Source of the DNA: Acholeplasmatales bacterium
GTDB taxonomy: Bacteria; Bacillota_I; Bacilli_A; Acholeplasmatales; Anaeroplasmataceae
NCBI GenBank assembly: GCA_024698125.1
Contig: JAILRQ010000076.1
Span: 1-56,806, forward strand
Reading direction: 5' to 3'
DNA length: 56,806 nt
The notes beneath the pieces are model-generated. The model was not told the origin of the DNA, searched no databases, and saw nothing but the letters and a program-made list of their open reading frames with translations. Shown in pieces: positions 16,408 to 24,560 of this stretch. Both the position numbers and the translations under genes were made by a program. Each line of letters opens with the position of its first letter. Positions within the stretch are counted from its first letter, which is position 1.

Positions 16408-19221
16408 TTATGACCAAATGAAGTCGTAGTCAATAGACCAGTTGTACTTTGTTGTATCTGTCCAATCAGTATATAGTGTGAACTCATGTGTTGAGTAGCT
16501 AAATAGTGATCTTGCTAGATAATCTGTATACATTGCCTTCTTATCAGCATCATCTGTAAATGTTAAATCAGCTAGCTCATAAGTTAGGTACTTCCAGTTT
16601 TGGAAGTTTGTTGATGTATAGAATGTGATAGCTCCACTAAATACTGTAGAAATTGCAGTGTTAACTGAAGTCTTTAGTAATGAGTGAGATCCCATAATTG
16701 TTTGCTCATAGAAGTAAACAAATAATTGAGATGCTGATGCATATACTGTATCAGAATATCCATTAGCATAAATTACATACTCAGGATCGTCATCATCATC
16801 GTCTCCACCATCAGCATCATCAGGAATTAATACAACCTCTAGATGCTCATACTGCATATACTCATCATCCTCATCAGCCTTAGAGTCAGAAGATGATTCG
16901 AACTTAGCAGAATCTACCTCATCAGTATCATAGATGTTAAGGATATGGTATCCATAAGTAGTCTTACATAATGAATCAAGTGATGTTTGAGTAGTAGTGA
17001 ATTCAAAGATTCCAGTCTCCTCCATCTCATCCTCATCATATGTACCATCGATTACCTTATCATATAATTCCTTAACTCTTGTACTAAACTCCTCCATATA
17101 ATTTGAAGCACTGAATAAATCAATCTCTGATAGATCCTCAGTAGTTAATACAATTGGGAATACTGTCTTTAGGTCATTCCAATATACATCATGACCTGTT
17201 GTATATGATAATGAACCAATCTTATAGTTATTATTGAATGCATCAACAATATATGATAATGCTTCTGTTACTGTCTTAGTACTATTATCAAGGTTAGTTA
17301 AGATTTGTACCTCAGAAATAATAGCATTAACAATATTTAATACTGCCTGATCAAACTCATCTGCAAGTGTTGAATCAATTTCTTCAAGAGATGCTCTATA
17401 TGCATCTGGATCAGAATATGAACCACTATAATCCTCATCAACAGAGATTAGAATATGAGAGATTGAAGCACTGAAGTATGCATCATATAAATCCTCATAA
17501 ATATCTGCAAATTGAGTGAATAATGTAGATGTTGTATCAAATGTAGAATCACTTGTTACTGGATTTCCAAAGTATGAAGCTACCTTGTCAAGAATCATTG
17601 AAGCCTTCTTATTAGCTAAAACCTCAGCCTTTGTTGATACACCATAAGTTATTTGAAGGTATGTAGATGTACCAAGCTTCTTAGAAACATCCTTATTTCC
17701 CTTCTTAAATGACTTAATCTCATCAGATAGGTCATCCTTATAATCATCATATGTATCATCATCAATTAGATCCTCCATATATGATAGATCTAATGCCCAT
17801 TGATTCTTTAAATATGAAACTGCTAGTGAAGTTCCGTTTGCAGGCTCAAGCTCCTCATATAGCTCCTCTGGAGTATATGTATATTCCTCACCCTCATAAG
17901 TGAACTTATAAACATAATCATTATTTGCTGTTGATGTATATGTGAAATCATCATAATCCTGCTTGAAATTATATCCAATAAGTGGATCATAGATTTCAAT
18001 TGCATCATCATCAACAAGCTCCTCTAATGCATCAGAAACAATAGTTGATGCAAGTGTTGAAATTGACTTATTCTCAAGAATGTAGTCTAGCATTTCGTCG
18101 TAAACTGTAGTTCCGTCTCCTGCTACCTTTTGTGAATCATCAAGCTCATCCCACTCAACTACCTCTTCACCAGAAATACGGTATGCTAGGTAGTATGAAC
18201 CATCAACGTTAAATGGCTTGTCTAGATAATCTCCATCCTCCATTTCCTTGAAGAATGTTTCAAAGGTAGCTGAATAGTTTGAAGTAAGTCTATTCTTCTC
18301 CTTTGTAACTGATAAGTTTGTTTGCTCATCAGTTAAATAATTATCCTCTGTTAAATCAGACTTAGTAGCATTCTTAATATTATAGATTGTAAGATATTGC
18401 TCTAAGAAATTAGAAGAATCAATTGTAGATGAACCAGTAGTTGCGAATGCCTGCTGCATAACACGCTCAGCTTGAGCATATGATGCAAACTTAATTACAA
18501 TACCACGATACTCTCTGAAATACTTTCCAGTTGAGTAATAGTAGTCTGAAACATCCTCATCCTCTACATAATAGTTATTCTCTCCAACTCCAGAAATATA
18601 CTTATTTCCATAGTAATACTTGAAGTCCTTGTTCTTTAGTTGGGCTAAAGCATAGTTACTCATAGCCATATCAAATATATATGATTCGTATAGCTCATAT
18701 GGGAACTCTGCTACGAATTGGTCATCACCATTCTCATCTGTTGTATATGAAATAGTAATTGCCTCGATATCAGCCTTAGTAAAGTAGCTTCCATCGCTCT
18801 TTTTAGTTCCGTTATTAAATAAAGTATCTACATACTTCTCGATTTGAGTAGCCTTTTCCTCATCTGTAAGCTCCTTATAGGCCTCTACACTTGCAGCTCC
18901 ATAAATTGCACTTACAAGATTTTGGTTAATTGTGTAGTAATCATCTGGATCATTAGCCTCAGAGTACTCAAAATATGTCTTATCAGTGACAATATCAGAG
19001 AACATATCCTCTTTAATCTTTTGAAGTACTGTACTATATCCACTACTACGCATTAAATCATATAGCTGCTTCTTAGAGATTGAATAATCTCCAAGAGTAG
19101 CATATGAATCTGTATTTGAAATATTTCCATATGGAGTTTCTGAATTAACAGTTGCCCCACATGATACTAAAGCCATTGTTGAAAGCCCTAGGACAGCTAA
19201 TGAAATAAAACTCTTCTTCAT
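16408..19221 (-). CDS. Giant PrsA/SurA-like (parvulin-type) foldase lipoprotein
   Basis: This is a lipoprotein of about 937 residues, with the lipobox ALVSC at about 17-21. After it, 'YATLGDYSISKKQLYDLM' is the type of SurA/PrsA N-terminal helix that precedes a chaperone domain. A parvulin-like prolyl isomerase domain is suggested by ISHILISVDED near 586 and TTYGYHILNIYDT near 758, the two hallmark strands. They are separated by an unusually long insert. PrsA proteins are about 300 residues, so this is about three times larger. An Asp run (DGGDDDDDD) lies near residue 805. The ATG at 19221 is 1 nt after the stop of the upstream paralogue; the GTG/ATG codons before it are the ribosome binding site region (GGTGAATAAT). 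It probably helps extracellular proteins fold. Confidence 0.72.
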   Translation of the reverse strand: MKKSFISLAVLGLSTMALVSCGATVNSETPYGNISNTDSYATLGDYSISKKQLYDLMRSSGYSTVLQKIKEDMFSDIVTDKTYFEYSEANDPDDYYTINQNLVSAIYGAASVEAYKELTDEEKATQIEKYVDTLFNNGTKKSDGSYFTKADIEAITISYTTDENGDDQFVAEFPYELYESYIFDMAMSNYALAQLKNKDFKYYYGNKYISGVGENNYYVEDEDVSDYYYSTGKYFREYRGIVIKFASYAQAERVMQQAFATTGSSTIDSSNFLEQYLTIYNIKNATKSDLTEDNYLTDEQTNLSVTKEKNRLTSNYSATFETFFKEMEDGDYLDKPFNVDGSYYLAYRISGEEVVEWDELDDSQKVAGDGTTVYDEMLDYILENKSISTLASTIVSDALEELVDDDAIEIYDPLIGYNFKQDYDDFTYTSTANNDYVYKFTYEGEEYTYTPEELYEELEPANGTSLAVSYLKNQWALDLSYMEDLIDDDTYDDYKDDLSDEIKSFKKGNKDVSKKLGTSTYLQITYGVSTKAEVLANKKASMILDKVASYFGNPVTSDSTFDTTSTLFTQFADIYEDLYDAYFSASISHILISVDEDYSGSYSDPDAYRASLEEIDSTLADEFDQAVLNIVNAIISEVQILTNLDNSTKTVTEALSYIVDAFNNNYKIGSLSYTTGHDVYWNDLKTVFPIVLTTEDLSEIDLFSASNYMEEFSTRVKELYDKVIDGTYDEDEMEETGIFEFTTTQTSLDSLCKTTYGYHILNIYDTDEVDSAKFESSSDSKADEDDEYMQYEHLEVVLIPDDADGGDDDDDDPEYVIYANGYSDTVYASASQLFVYFYEQTIMGSHSLLKTSVNTAISTVFSGAITFYTSTNFQNWKYLTYELADLTFTDDADKKAMYTDYLARSLFSYSTHEFTLYTDWTDTTKYNWSIDYDFIWS

Positions 19222-19222
19222 A

Positions 19223-22210
19223 TTATTCACCATCCCCTAATGTTAATACTGTAGTCCACCAATTATCAAATAGATATGCCTCATCAGACTCATCAAGATA
19301 ATTATCATCCTGACGTCTATTGATAGCCATCATCTCTGTTAATCTAGAATCATTATCACTATCTGTAAATGAAATTGATGAAGATAGTGTCTTTGCAAAT
19401 AATAGCTCACGTTGTGTAGCTGTACCTGTGTACTTCTCATATACTGGCATAATGAAGTCAGTAATATAAGATTGTACTGAAGATGGGAAGAATGTTGAAG
19501 TACCATAATTTAAATACTCATAGATGAATAGAATGATTTGGTTGATTGAAGCCTCATCCTCTGAATCATTATAAATATTTTCAATTGTCTTAACAATATC
19601 ATCATACTCAATAACAATATTAGTATATCTTCCGTTTACATCATCCTTAGAGTCAAACTCTGCACTACTTCTTACAGTACATGAAGTAACAAGAAGCATT
19701 GAATATCCCATAGTCTCTCCAAGAGAGTTAGTCATAAGCCAACCTTGGGCACTATCTCCATCATAGTCGGCACTATCAAGATATTCTGAAGGATATGTAT
19801 CATATAGTGAAATTGTATTGTATAGCTCATGTAGCTTAGCCTTAGCTGAGTTTGTAGCTACAGTATTATCTGAAGATGACTCATATGTAGAGATAGCTAC
19901 ATCTGTGTAATCAGTAGTTGTAACATAGATTCCAGCTCTCTTATACTTTGCCCATCTTGTTTCAGGCTCAGTTGGGTCATACTCAGTATTAGTTCCATCA
20001 TATTCATCAATACCGTTTGTGAATCTTCCTGATGATGTATACTCCTCTACCATTGAAGATAGTGTTGTAGCAAATGTTTCATCAGCATTCTCCATACGAG
20101 TAATGAATGTTTGCATTAGCTCAATTGCATAATCTGCATATGTAGATGATGAATCACCTGGAATTGCTGTACTCCAATCGAAATCAAGGTCAGCCTCTCC
20201 ATCCTCATCCATATCTACATAGATTTGAATATTTGTAGCACTTGCTTTAAATGAATCAGTATATGCAGCCTTAGCATATGACTGAACCATTTCATAGAAT
20301 GCAGTGTTATTTGCATAGTCTGTTAAAATCTTAGCAGTTGCAGCCTGTATTCTATAATAGTTATCAATAATGTCATCTACATCTGTCTCATGGAAGTATA
20401 GCTTTAAGAAGTTATACTTTCCTAGGCTTGCATCATAATCACTAATTTGTCCATCAGCGAAATATGCAAGTAATAAATCTAGTGTAGATTCATAATCATC
20501 GATATCTTCCTTAGTATCAGCATACTCATCAGTATCCTTAATAGCCTTCTCTGATAATAGGTCGATTGCAGTCGTTACACCATTTTCAGCCTCAAGCTTT
20601 TCATAAACCTCACCAATAGTGATGTTTGTCTTATTACCGTCATAAACAACAGTCATTAATGTATCCTTTGTAGGTGCATTCTTGTGAGTCTTTGAATAAG
20701 AATCAACATTGTATGCATAAACAATCTCTACATCCTCATCATAAATATAAACCTTAGTATCCTCTAAAGCCTCGCTTATACGCTCTGATACGTAAGAATC
20801 TGTTAGCTTCTCCCACATCATTTCTTCAATAAGCTCTGCTCTATACTCAGATCTTTCCTCAGGAATTTCTGTATCATTTTCGATGTCATCAACTAAAACA
20901 TACTCATCAGCAAGCTCGTCCTCTGCCATCTTAAATGCCATATAGTAATAATCTCCAATAGAGTACCCTGATGTAGAATAACGATATTCTCCATCAGCTA
21001 GATCTGGCTCAACCTGCAATGTAGATGAAATATATTGCTTGAATGTTGTATCAATATCATCTAAATCCTCTTGAGAATATGTGAATGATTCAATTAATTC
21101 ACTATCCCAAGCAGCAGTAATATCCTCTACTGAAACATTGTTATTATTAAAATATGCTAAAATCTTTTCAGTAATATCACGTCTATGAAGTGTATCATTA
21201 CCTGCTGCACTTACAACAGTAGGTACTGCATCACGATATGAATAGATGTAATTGTACATTTGGCAATAAAGCTCAAAAACACCACCATCTCCTACAACCT
21301 GAGTGAAGTTAATTCTTCTATCAGCTGTAGCTTGATCAGTTACATCAAAATCATCATAGTATGAATTATATTCTGTATTAGTCTTGTCAGCCTGTGGAAT
21401 AAAATACATAGTTCCATCGCTAACCTTAATACCAAATGATCTTAGAGTCTTCTCAATTTCATCCTCATCTGTAAAACGGATGTATAGAGCTGTTCTATCA
21501 GCCTCATATTGATAATTCTCCTTTTGGTATGAAATAACGTCAGCATCAGTGAAATAATAATCATCCTCGTCATCCTGATCGTCATTATAATCTTCAATGT
21601 ATTCTTCAAGATAATTATATGAGAAAATCTTTTCTGCAAGCTTAATTTCGTACTTATAGTAATAGTCATATAGGTAATATGTTTCCTCATACTTTGTATC
21701 AGCAAACATAGTCTTTCCATTTTGCTCTACTGTAGATGGAGTTAAATCCTGTGGATCAATAACAACCTGATAATCAATATACATGTTATCAACGAATTGT
21801 TGAGCTAAATCCTCTTGCTCCTTCTTAGTAAGATCCTTGGCAGCATCAATTTCAGATACACCATAAACCTCTGACATTGCTAATTGCTCTAGATAATCTA
21901 GATATCTCTTTTGTTTTTGAACACTTAAATCAGATGAATCATCACAAATGGCAGCAATTGCGCTTTGTGCCTCTGTTACCTCATCTGCTAAAACAGCATA
22001 TTCAATCTTTTCACCAAGGACCTCATATGAGTTCCACTTAAGCTCCTCCCATAGCTCTCCATTTGTAATGGAATAGCTTCCTGAGCTAGCGTAAACATCA
22101 TCATATGCAATAGAGCTGTATGATGTGTGCTTACATGATGCTAGGGCTAGTACTGATAATGCGCCAATCCCTAATGTAGCTACTGTTTTCAATCTGAATT
22201 TATTAATCAT
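19223..22210 (-). CDS. Giant foldase-like lipoprotein, paralogue of its downstream neighbour
   Basis: This protein of about 995 residues has the lipobox LALASC near residue 26. I use the ATG at 22210, which has AAGGAG 9 nt upstream; a longer frame starting at 22279 overlaps the promoter. The order of segments parallels the next gene: 'YASSGSYSITNGELWEELK' after the lipobox, the region 'KYNFLKLYFHET...' near 615, 'ATNIQIYVDMD' near 657 where the neighbour has ISHILISVDED, and 'MGYSMLLVTS' near 835 where it has YGYHILNIYDT. The residues matching the parvulin active-site strands are replaced, so this copy is probably not an isomerase and may act as a chaperone or partner. The protein is very acidic and Tyr-rich. 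Confidence 0.65.
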   Translation of the reverse strand: MINKFRLKTVATLGIGALSVLALASCKHTSYSSIAYDDVYASSGSYSITNGELWEELKWNSYEVLGEKIEYAVLADEVTEAQSAIAAICDDSSDLSVQKQKRYLDYLEQLAMSEVYGVSEIDAAKDLTKKEQEDLAQQFVDNMYIDYQVVIDPQDLTPSTVEQNGKTMFADTKYEETYYLYDYYYKYEIKLAEKIFSYNYLEEYIEDYNDDQDDEDDYYFTDADVISYQKENYQYEADRTALYIRFTDEDEIEKTLRSFGIKVSDGTMYFIPQADKTNTEYNSYYDDFDVTDQATADRRINFTQVVGDGGVFELYCQMYNYIYSYRDAVPTVVSAAGNDTLHRRDITEKILAYFNNNNVSVEDITAAWDSELIESFTYSQEDLDDIDTTFKQYISSTLQVEPDLADGEYRYSTSGYSIGDYYYMAFKMAEDELADEYVLVDDIENDTEIPEERSEYRAELIEEMMWEKLTDSYVSERISEALEDTKVYIYDEDVEIVYAYNVDSYSKTHKNAPTKDTLMTVVYDGNKTNITIGEVYEKLEAENGVTTAIDLLSEKAIKDTDEYADTKEDIDDYESTLDLLLAYFADGQISDYDASLGKYNFLKLYFHETDVDDIIDNYYRIQAATAKILTDYANNTAFYEMVQSYAKAAYTDSFKASATNIQIYVDMDEDGEADLDFDWSTAIPGDSSSTYADYAIELMQTFITRMENADETFATTLSSMVEEYTSSGRFTNGIDEYDGTNTEYDPTEPETRWAKYKRAGIYVTTTDYTDVAISTYESSSDNTVATNSAKAKLHELYNTISLYDTYPSEYLDSADYDGDSAQGWLMTNSLGETMGYSMLLVTSCTVRSSAEFDSKDDVNGRYTNIVIEYDDIVKTIENIYNDSEDEASINQIILFIYEYLNYGTSTFFPSSVQSYITDFIMPVYEKYTGTATQRELLFAKTLSSSISFTDSDNDSRLTEMMAINRRQDDNYLDESDEAYLFDNWWTTVLTLGDGE

Positions 22211-22257
22211 AGAAAAGTACTCCTTTTTCCTCAAAATCTTAAAATCACGCATAATAT

Positions 22258-22286
22258 ATAATAACATTATATAGGGCAAAAATCAA
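22258..22286 (-). promoter_or_regulatory. Promoter of the two foldase-like lipoprotein genes
   Basis: On the minus strand there is TTGATT (22281-22286), 17 nt, then TATTAT (22258-22263). A second TATAAT-like hexamer lies in the spacer. Confidence 0.6.
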
Positions 22287-22322: not shown

Positions 22323-24356
22323 CTATTTATGCTTATAGAACTTTACCCTGTCCATAACTCCAATTGGTTCTGTAAACTCACCATCCTTTGTTTTAGCAAG
22401 CTCATCCCCAAGAACTCTAAACTTTGAATCAATTGAATCAATGAACCAAAGCATTGCACTTTCAGCAATACAAGGCTTTTTAATTGCTCCATATTGTGGA
22501 ATTCCATGATGGGAAGCCACCATATGTAATAGCATTAGGACCTCTTCCTCGTCTCCAGTGTAGCCTAATTCCTTAGCTGTTTGTGATATAATATCGCATC
22601 CAATAAGTAGGTGACCAAGAAGCTGACCTTTCATAGCATACTCAGTGTTTTCAACACCTGTAAACTCAATCACCTTTCCAATATCATGCAGTATTGTACC
22701 ACTAATTAGTAAATCGTGGTCTAGATATGGATAGCATTCTATCATTCTTTTAGCTACATCAAGCATACCAAGTGTGTGGTAGGCAAGTCCTCCCACATAA
22801 GCATGGTGAAGCTTTGCAGCTGCAGGATATAGATAGAAATCATTAGAATATCTATCAATAATAGACCTTGTAATATCATGTAATGACTTAGTCTTAATTG
22901 AATCAATATATCCGTCAATTCCATTCTTTAATTCAGTATAGTCAAGAACAGCAGAGCTCATAAACTTACGATATATAGCATTTTGCTTTTCTGTATCCTC
23001 AACCTCTGTAATATGCTTAAATGAAACTACATAGGCACTAAGCTTATCAGAATTAGTGTTACGTGCAATCTCAAACTCATATATACAGTTTAAGAATAAA
23101 TCCACTGCTCTTTCACATTCAAGCTTTAGATTATATCTAGTTTTATCATCTAATGTAACAATAAGATTAACCATTGAATCACTATTCATGATTTGGTCAA
23201 TCTTAGCGTATATAACGCTCTTAATTACCTCATCCATCTTTTTCTTCTCCTCTAGCACATATTTCATAATGTCATCCTTACTATTTTTTATTTTTCCCTT
23301 AAGGATGGCATTCATTATCCTTTGCTTCATATCAGATATCATCTCAGGCTCAATATGCTCCATCAAATCATATGATGTTACATCTATGCCCTTAATACCC
23401 TTTATAGGAAGGCTTTTATAATATTCATCAATATTATCCTTATGCTCTCTTCCAAGTATTCTATTAACCTCATTTGAAAGCCTTATGGCCTCAAATGATT
23501 TATCCATATAGGTGATATCATCTGTAGGGTCTACAGATAGCATTTCCTTTAATAGGGCCTTTGTTTCATTATCATATTCAAGCGAATAATCAATACCCTT
23601 ATTAAGCCTTGCTCCAAGTGCAAGTACAAGTATTATATCATTTGTAACTATTTCATTATTATATAGGAAATATAGTGCCTTTTTAATTGGCTTATAGGCA
23701 TCTACTATTCTTGATTTGATTAAGACATCAATATAGCTATTATTAGTGTTATATTTAATCATCTTAAATAGCTCTATTCTTTTTCTCATACCAGATAGAT
23801 CTTTTACAAGGGCTGCCTTCTCATAGATAGCATCCATTGTATTCTTTTCAATCTCAAAGCCAAGCTTTGATGTTAAATAGATAGCTCTAAGCATTCTAAG
23901 TGAATCCTCATCAAATCTCTTTATTGGATCCCCTATACATCTTATAACCTTATTCTTTATATCATTAAGACCATTATGCTTATCTATAATGTTACCATTA
24001 ACATCCACTGCCATAGCGTTTATAGTAAAGTCTCTTCTTACTAAATCCTCATCAAGGGTTTTAGCAATTGCTGTTTGTGGATGTCTATGATCATCATAGC
24101 TTATATCCTTACGAAATGTTGTAATCTCAAATGAATAAGCACCCTCCTCTATTGTAAGAGATTGATACTTACCTCCATTATCTACTACATTAAATATTTC
24201 CTTAATCTCATCTGGTGTAGCTGATGTGGTAATATCTATATCATAGGCCTCAAGACCTAAAAGCTTATCACGTACGTATCCACCTACGATATAAGCCTCA
24301 TATCCCTTTTCTATTAGCTTTTTAAGAATTTCTTTAGCTTTAGCATCTATTACCAT
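22323..24356 (-). CDS. cca: CCA-adding tRNA nucleotidyltransferase fused to a YhaM-like HD exoribonuclease
   Basis: This 677-residue protein looks like two enzymes in one chain. The N-terminal half is a class II tRNA nucleotidyltransferase that adds or repairs 3'-CCA: GGYVRD at 25-30, the metal-binding DID at 39-41, RRDFTINAMA at 107-116 and DEDSLRMLRA at 149-158. From about 380 on it resembles nearly the whole of Bacillus YhaM (3'-5' exoribonuclease): an OB-like strand region (about 380-450), then YPAAAKLHHAYVGGLAYH near 515 and the HD motif LHDIGKV near 555, then VASHHG near 610. Standard Cca is about 400 residues and YhaM about 314, so the length fits a fusion. The ATG follows AAGGTGGTGA. 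A stem-loop sits in its leader. Both halves are intact by eye; the boundary is approximate. Confidence 0.85.
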   Translation of the reverse strand: MVIDAKAKEILKKLIEKGYEAYIVGGYVRDKLLGLEAYDIDITTSATPDEIKEIFNVVDNGGKYQSLTIEEGAYSFEITTFRKDISYDDHRHPQTAIAKTLDEDLVRRDFTINAMAVDVNGNIIDKHNGLNDIKNKVIRCIGDPIKRFDEDSLRMLRAIYLTSKLGFEIEKNTMDAIYEKAALVKDLSGMRKRIELFKMIKYNTNNSYIDVLIKSRIVDAYKPIKKALYFLYNNEIVTNDIILVLALGARLNKGIDYSLEYDNETKALLKEMLSVDPTDDITYMDKSFEAIRLSNEVNRILGREHKDNIDEYYKSLPIKGIKGIDVTSYDLMEHIEPEMISDMKQRIMNAILKGKIKNSKDDIMKYVLEEKKKMDEVIKSVIYAKIDQIMNSDSMVNLIVTLDDKTRYNLKLECERAVDLFLNCIYEFEIARNTNSDKLSAYVVSFKHITEVEDTEKQNAIYRKFMSSAVLDYTELKNGIDGYIDSIKTKSLHDITRSIIDRYSNDFYLYPAAAKLHHAYVGGLAYHTLGMLDVAKRMIECYPYLDHDLLISGTILHDIGKVIEFTGVENTEYAMKGQLLGHLLIGCDIISQTAKELGYTGDEEEVLMLLHMVASHHGIPQYGAIKKPCIAESAMLWFIDSIDSKFRVLGDELAKTKDGEFTEPIGVMDRVKFYKHK

Positions 24357-24386
24357 AAGCTCACCACCTTATATAAAATAATAAAA

Positions 24387-24409
24387 GGAAATGTTTTAAG
24401 CACATTTCC
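24387..24409 (-). terminator. Stem-loop with T-rich tail in the leader of the cca fusion gene
   Basis: A perfect 8-bp stem (GGAAATGT / ACATTTCC, 7-nt loop) is followed by TTTTATTATTTT on the minus strand. It lies between the predicted start (about 24412) and the ATG at 24356. It could be an attenuator or a 5'-end stabilising hairpin. Confidence 0.5.
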
Positions 24410-24418
24410 CTATAAAAT

Positions 24419-24447
24419 CTTATATAATGTGTCTTTAAACATACCAA
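24419..24447 (-). promoter_or_regulatory. Promoter of the cca fusion gene
   Basis: On the minus strand there is TTGGTA (24442-24447), 17 nt, then TATAAG (24419-24424). Confidence 0.55.
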
Positions 24448-24535
24448 AAAATATTCATAATTTAAAGCCACTTATTTATTAATACACTAAAATTATATCA
24501 AACTCCTTTTATTTATTCAATGCTTTTTTAAGTTA

Positions 24536-24544
24536 TGTTATAAT
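24536..24544 (+). promoter_or_regulatory. Extended -10 promoter of the YigZ-family gene
   Basis: TGTTATAAT is an extended -10 box with no clear -35. The start would fall near 24551, at the first base of the ribosome binding site GGTGA, leaving a leader of about 10 nt. Confidence 0.65.
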
Positions 24545-24560
24545 AGTGTTGGTGATTTTG

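Follow-up and report, generated by a model that had tools for sequence, protein, structure and literature searches.

The fused reading frame and its surroundings

The DNA analysed here (the window) is a 56,806-nucleotide stretch from the metagenome-assembled genome (MAG) of an uncultured acholeplasma relative (G000; 1.5 Mb in 120 contigs, 94.6% complete and 5.6% contaminated). On its minus strand, cca and yhaM share a single open reading frame of 677 amino acids (positions 22323-24356) that runs from ATG to stop with no internal stop codon, exactly where a first-pass annotation of this DNA had described one uninterrupted frame. The Cca part comprises residues 1-373 (23238-24356, minus strand) and the YhaM part comprises residues 374-677 plus the stop codon (22323-23237, minus strand), the latter beginning at the ancestral yhaM start codon (Met374).

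The same 677-aa frame is present, at 87% identity, in a second MAG of the same genus (g1), G141 (Caryophanales bacterium UBA3206; L003). Two more cases come from a different genus of the family (g3): G118 (L044) carries a stop-free fused frame of 677 aa with a homologous join point, and the fused frame of G117 (L043) is open as far as the contig end, the remainder of its YhaM sitting on a short contig of that genome. The window comes from a fragmented metagenome assembly, which would favour a frameshift or assembly artefact joining two genes, and the loss of an intervening stop through sequencing error had been a worry of the first-pass annotation. Such an artefact is extremely improbable, however: the independent genomes, with the G141 frame and the comparable frames in the two g3 genomes, rule it out, and the apparent selection on both halves (see below) also speaks against it.

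Single-frame Cca-YhaM fusions were found, among the matches listed, in four of the 160 genomes of the order (G000, G141, G117 and G118), and none further appeared among the matches listed for wider samples of the class, where a fusion would rank high; the survey tables hold best matches only. A literature search, which misses most subscription journals, found no paper on a Cca-YhaM fusion. One frame holding a complete Cca and a complete YhaM is confirmed as a genuine gene fusion, and the architecture is genuine and uncommon.

Upstream, an intergenic leader (24357-24545) separates the fused gene from the divergent yigZ. It contains a promoter-like site (24520-24492, minus strand), a terminator-like hairpin (24411-24385, minus strand) and the ribosome-binding site of the cca start, AAGGTGG (24364-24370, minus strand; duplex energy -11.0, computed, like all such energies here, against a generic bacterial 16S rRNA tail). 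The hairpin lies between the promoter-like site and the cca start and might act as an attenuator. By eye, G000 and G141 share about 95% identity in the leader, even though the flanking coding starts diverge; the leader gave no Rfam match. Directly downstream of the fused gene (16408-22279) are two very large lipoprotein-like genes of 941 and about 1000 aa, both encoding a signal peptide with a lipobox-like cysteine, and comparable large lipoprotein genes follow yhaM in G118, G116, G129 and G127.

The Cca half

The first-pass annotation took the N-terminal tRNA nucleotidyltransferase to be complete, and profile searches bear this out. The NCBIfam model for CCA tRNA nucleotidyltransferase (PRK13299) aligns to residues 6-372 over profile positions 8-395 of 396 (E 2.3e-79), and Pfam places PF01743 at residues 21-139 (116 bits against a cut-off of 23), PolyA_pol_RNAbd at 166-220 and PF13735 at 280-367. 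All head-domain motifs are retained: GG.VRD (G25, G26, V28, R29, D30), D.D (D39/D41), RHP (R91, H92, P93), RRDFT (R107, R108, D109, F110, T111) and ED..R (E150, D151, R154). The closest solved structures to the N-terminal part are the CCA-adding enzymes 1miv and 7otr/6ibp, and in Foldseek the model of this half matches CCA-adding enzymes of the Bacilli type (target TM 0.79-0.85). The Cca half is thus predicted to be a complete class II CCA-adding enzyme; no other nucleotidyltransferase of its kind was found in the genome, which is consistent with full CCA addition by this half.

The protein shares with the Bacilli class II enzymes (PRK13299; 1miv, 6ibp/7otr) their full length, nucleotidyltransferase motifs, neck and body domains and PF13735, but lacks their stop and continues into YhaM; in addition, its PRK13299 score of 267.3 bits is below the curated cut-off of 290 (the unfused Cca of G116, a g3 genome, scores 342). 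As a correction to the first-pass annotation, the C-terminal domain usual in Bacilli Cca (PF13735) is kept and YhaM is appended after it.

The YhaM half

The C-terminal half contains an OB-fold region (residues about 377-448; 23013-23228, minus strand) followed by an HD exonuclease domain (residues 455-677; 22326-22994, minus strand), the latter assigned from YhaM alignment, structure match and the retention of invariant residues. The YhaM model PRK13480 of NCBIfam (E 8.5e-64) and the solved YhaM 9h3f (E 2.6e-50) both align to residues 455-675, and Pfam reports an HD domain at 525-620. The closest solved structures to the C-terminal part are the YhaM structures 9h3f and 9o7t; the modelled HD part superposes on 9h3f with a target TM of 0.95 and an rmsd of 1.2 over 210 columns (Foldseek). 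In the alignment to 9o7t, H557/D558 correspond to H192/D193 of Staphylococcus aureus YhaM, a hexameric, Mn-dependent enzyme that requires these two residues for activity (PMC11347170).

The OB assignment has no OB-specific database match and rests on the strand pattern of the model (strands at 377-392, 395-401, 407-413, 425-433 and 440-448, with pLDDT mostly above 90) and on homology to the N-termini of standalone YhaMs. In relatives, standalone YhaMs align to the fused protein from residue 374-375 through to its end; therefore, the OB region is included in the fusion. The first-pass annotation was right that the region resembles nearly all of YhaM, though its start lies at residue 374 and not at about 380. 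This half is therefore a predicted complete YhaM-type 3'-5' exoribonuclease with OB fold and HD domain. In these two domains, the catalytic His-Asp pair and a length of about 304 aa it resembles YhaM/Cbf1 (PRK13480; 9h3f, 9o7t), from which it differs in being joined to the C-terminus of Cca and in scoring 215.6 bits against a curated cut-off of 460. One relative's standalone YhaM scores similarly (218) and none of the 15 genomes of the order searched passes that cut-off, which is thus narrow for the order.

Multifunctional Cca of the Escherichia coli type (PRK10885) has the same outline, a nucleotidyltransferase followed by an HD-superfamily domain. PRK10885, however, aligns to residues 20-219 only and not to the HD part, which here is that of YhaM, with an OB fold in front of it. 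The HD part is thus distinct from the E. coli-type domain, as originally proposed.

Structure and selection across the fusion

The AlphaFold model of the whole protein (58-row alignment) has a mean pLDDT of 92.8 and a pTM of 0.56, which means that each half is modelled with confidence but their placement relative to each other is not. Helix 360-374 runs directly into the OB strands at 377, and no linker domain lies between the halves: a near-native Cca end meets the native YhaM start, Met374.

Of the columns conserved to at least 95% in unfused relatives, nearly all are kept in the g1 genomes, with one conservative change in the Cca half and four such in the YhaM half, none of them within the named catalytic motifs. 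Estimates of dN/dS (Nei-Gojobori) are 0.11 for Cca and 0.07 for YhaM between G000 and G141, and 0.20 and 0.11, respectively, between the g3 fused genomes; these values are rough because synonymous divergence is high. They indicate that both halves are under purifying selection and that the join is selectively maintained, and both halves look functional. Synonymous divergence between G000 and G141 (22326-24356 against L003) differs about twofold between the Cca half (1.10) and the YhaM half (0.52); recombination, codon bias and overlapping signals are candidate causes.

The junction retains a start site

All four fusions have a methionine at the exact start of standalone YhaM (Met374 in G000 and G141, Met376 in G118 and G117), and just upstream of it lies a Shine-Dalgarno-like motif (AGAGGAG, AGGAG or AGGAGG). 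In the window this is AGAGGAG (23247-23253, minus strand; duplex energy -9.2), 9 nt before the ATG (23237-23235) of Met374. The Shine-Dalgarno at the ancestral start is the strongest of those at internal ATGs in each fused gene (rank 1 of 23, 23, 11 and 8), and its strength is comparable with that of some real starts in the window. The sequence at the junction differs between the g1 and g3 lineages; since GAG is the commoner glutamate codon in g1 genomes and this preference may partly yield GAGGAG, the g1 motif is weaker evidence than the g3 motif. Over the internal Shine-Dalgarno, three synonymous differences occur among 17 same-residue codons (20-codon block), and values elsewhere are similar. 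The survival of the ancestral start codon together with the strongest internal Shine-Dalgarno suggests that free YhaM is probably produced alongside the fusion.

That all four genes keep an internal Shine-Dalgarno and ATG precisely where yhaM ancestrally started, and that no linker domain separates the halves, could also mean that the fusion exists at the level of annotation only, with mostly separate Cca-like and YhaM-like products arising by internal initiation or proteolysis and the joined form being incidental. This is distinctly unlikely: as no stop codon ends cca, ribosomes finishing it must enter yhaM, and free Cca would need proteolysis, none of which is evident.

Gene order and origin of the fusion

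Most genomes of the order that were examined carry cca and yhaM as neighbours in the same orientation. They are directly adjacent in 16 genomes, spaced by -20 to 50 nt. Among relatives with separate genes, the spacing is -13, 42 and 50 nt in the three nearest, and other members of the order have -20 to 15 nt or one gene between them. In the latter case cca and yhaM lie about 1.9-2.1 kb apart, and the intervening gene is the type I pullulanase gene pulA wherever tested. Two further families of the class (f16 and f24) share the gene order cca-pulA-yhaM, and a third (f7) has cca directly next to yhaM. The three-gene cluster, with tiny gaps or overlaps, is kept across several Bacilli families (e.g. 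L035, L086, L093, L101; L121, L126, L131). In genus g4, cca was not found beside yhaM. Genus g18 (L100, L134, L135, L130; small genomes, probably phytoplasmas) has short Cca frames of 176-314 aa, in some genomes beside an intact yhaM, which suggests decay of cca or frame breaks.

In G116, which belongs to g3 with G117 and G118, cca and yhaM are separate genes in different frames that overlap by 13 nt. A maximum-likelihood tree of Cca and YhaM groups G116 with G117 and G118 (support 97/98). The tree needs two changes of the fused state, which would be two fusion events or a single fusion plus a split.

Cca is also joined to its neighbour in two g2 genomes, where a single frame of 1058 aa encodes Cca-PulA (L032:2209-5385 in G097 and L033:2366-5542 in G091). 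As in Cca-YhaM, Cca is in frame with the next gene of the same conserved cluster; the partner, however, is a type I pullulanase with no RNA link, and no internal ATG is retained at the junction. These frames show that Cca tolerates a neighbour at its C-terminus. Because fusion of Cca to a neighbour recurs in this tight cluster, fusion alone need not mean functional coupling. YhaM open frames of 867-1023 aa raised the possibility of PulA-YhaM fusions as well, which was rejected: a stop separates the abutting in-frame genes in the loci examined.

A profile search of G000 found no second cca or yhaM in the 120 contigs of this 94.6% complete MAG. The first-pass annotation had held that loss of a separate yhaM would support a functional replacement; no separate copy was indeed found, yet the argument fails, as the fused copy is itself the ancestral operon copy.

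tRNA 3'-end processing in the host genome

ARAGORN predictions on regions found by Rfam search recovered 37 distinct tRNA genes in G000, all 37 ending in an encoded CCA. Thus, Cca is probably a repair enzyme and not a de novo builder of CCA. RNase R and PNPase are present in G000, whereas RNase PH was not found, nor was RNase Z, which gave weak matches only, taken to represent different proteins with the metallo-beta-lactamase fold, for example RNase J. These absences are not certain in a MAG of this fragmentation, completeness and contamination. With CCA encoded and RNase Z and RNase PH not found, tRNA 3' ends are probably made by exonucleases. For Mollicutes, Grosjean and colleagues have argued that encoded CCA makes RNase Z and Cca dispensable; YhaM or PNPase has been suggested as a substitute in phytoplasmas without RNase R, and in Mycoplasma genitalium RNase R does the trimming alone (PMC4014445). 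In Bacillus subtilis, YhaM is stated to compensate in part for the loss of enzymes that process tRNA and rRNA (PMC11347170).

This setting is compatible with a trim-and-repair fusion but fails to explain it, because the RNase set is common to unfused relatives. A tie between the fusion and RNase loss is not supported: fused and unfused relatives have the same set, except that RNase R was not found in two incomplete g5 genomes.

The fused protein could nevertheless be a dedicated bifunctional enzyme of tRNA 3'-end quality control, in which the YhaM half removes trailers or damaged ends and the Cca tethered to it puts CCA back on that tRNA. The apparently intact active-site residues and purifying selection in both halves would fit such an enzyme, as would the presence of the fused state in two genera, the likelihood of exonucleolytic maturation given encoded CCA without RNase Z or RNase PH, and the partial substitution by YhaM in B. 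subtilis. Against these points, unfused relatives carry the same RNases, the parallel Cca-PulA fusion has no such logic, the retained internal start suggests that free YhaM is still wanted, RNase R could trim alone as in M. genitalium, and in many relatives the two genes sit side by side in an operon. On balance a dedicated quality-control enzyme is rather unlikely. The same holds for its more specific form, a doubtful one, in which a hexameric YhaM core would trim tRNA ends, tethered Cca arms would rebuild CCA and the internal start would set the dosage through free YhaM. The favoured reading is that proximity in the operon led to fixation, with the internal start retained; quality control is the less probable one.

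Proposed origin and implications

The evidence taken together makes it likely that this is a real fusion, created by loss of the stop between operon neighbours and fixed through their proximity, from which both the full-length protein and free YhaM would be made. Once the stop codon between the adjacent cca and yhaM was lost, the two genes would share a frame; translation from the cca start would then yield the 677-aa Cca-YhaM protein, and translation from the retained internal Shine-Dalgarno and ATG would yield free YhaM of about 304 aa. Assembly into the hexamer usual for YhaM, if it occurs here, would give hexamers in which free subunits are mixed with subunits that carry Cca. The most likely task of the Cca half is to mend damaged or over-trimmed CCA ends, and the YhaM half would trim a few nucleotides off the 3' ends of RNAs, perhaps tRNA trailers among them. 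The fusion may place repair beside trimming, but operon proximity would explain its fixation well enough.

Should the two halves work together as one enzyme, the protein would offer a natural test of the physical coupling of 3' trimming and CCA repair, set in bacteria where every recovered tRNA gene encodes CCA and neither RNase Z nor RNase PH was found. Even with a neutral fusion, the cluster exemplifies how operon neighbours fuse in different combinations, with the downstream gene retaining its own ribosome-binding site in the Cca-YhaM case, and it warns against inferring function from one fusion.
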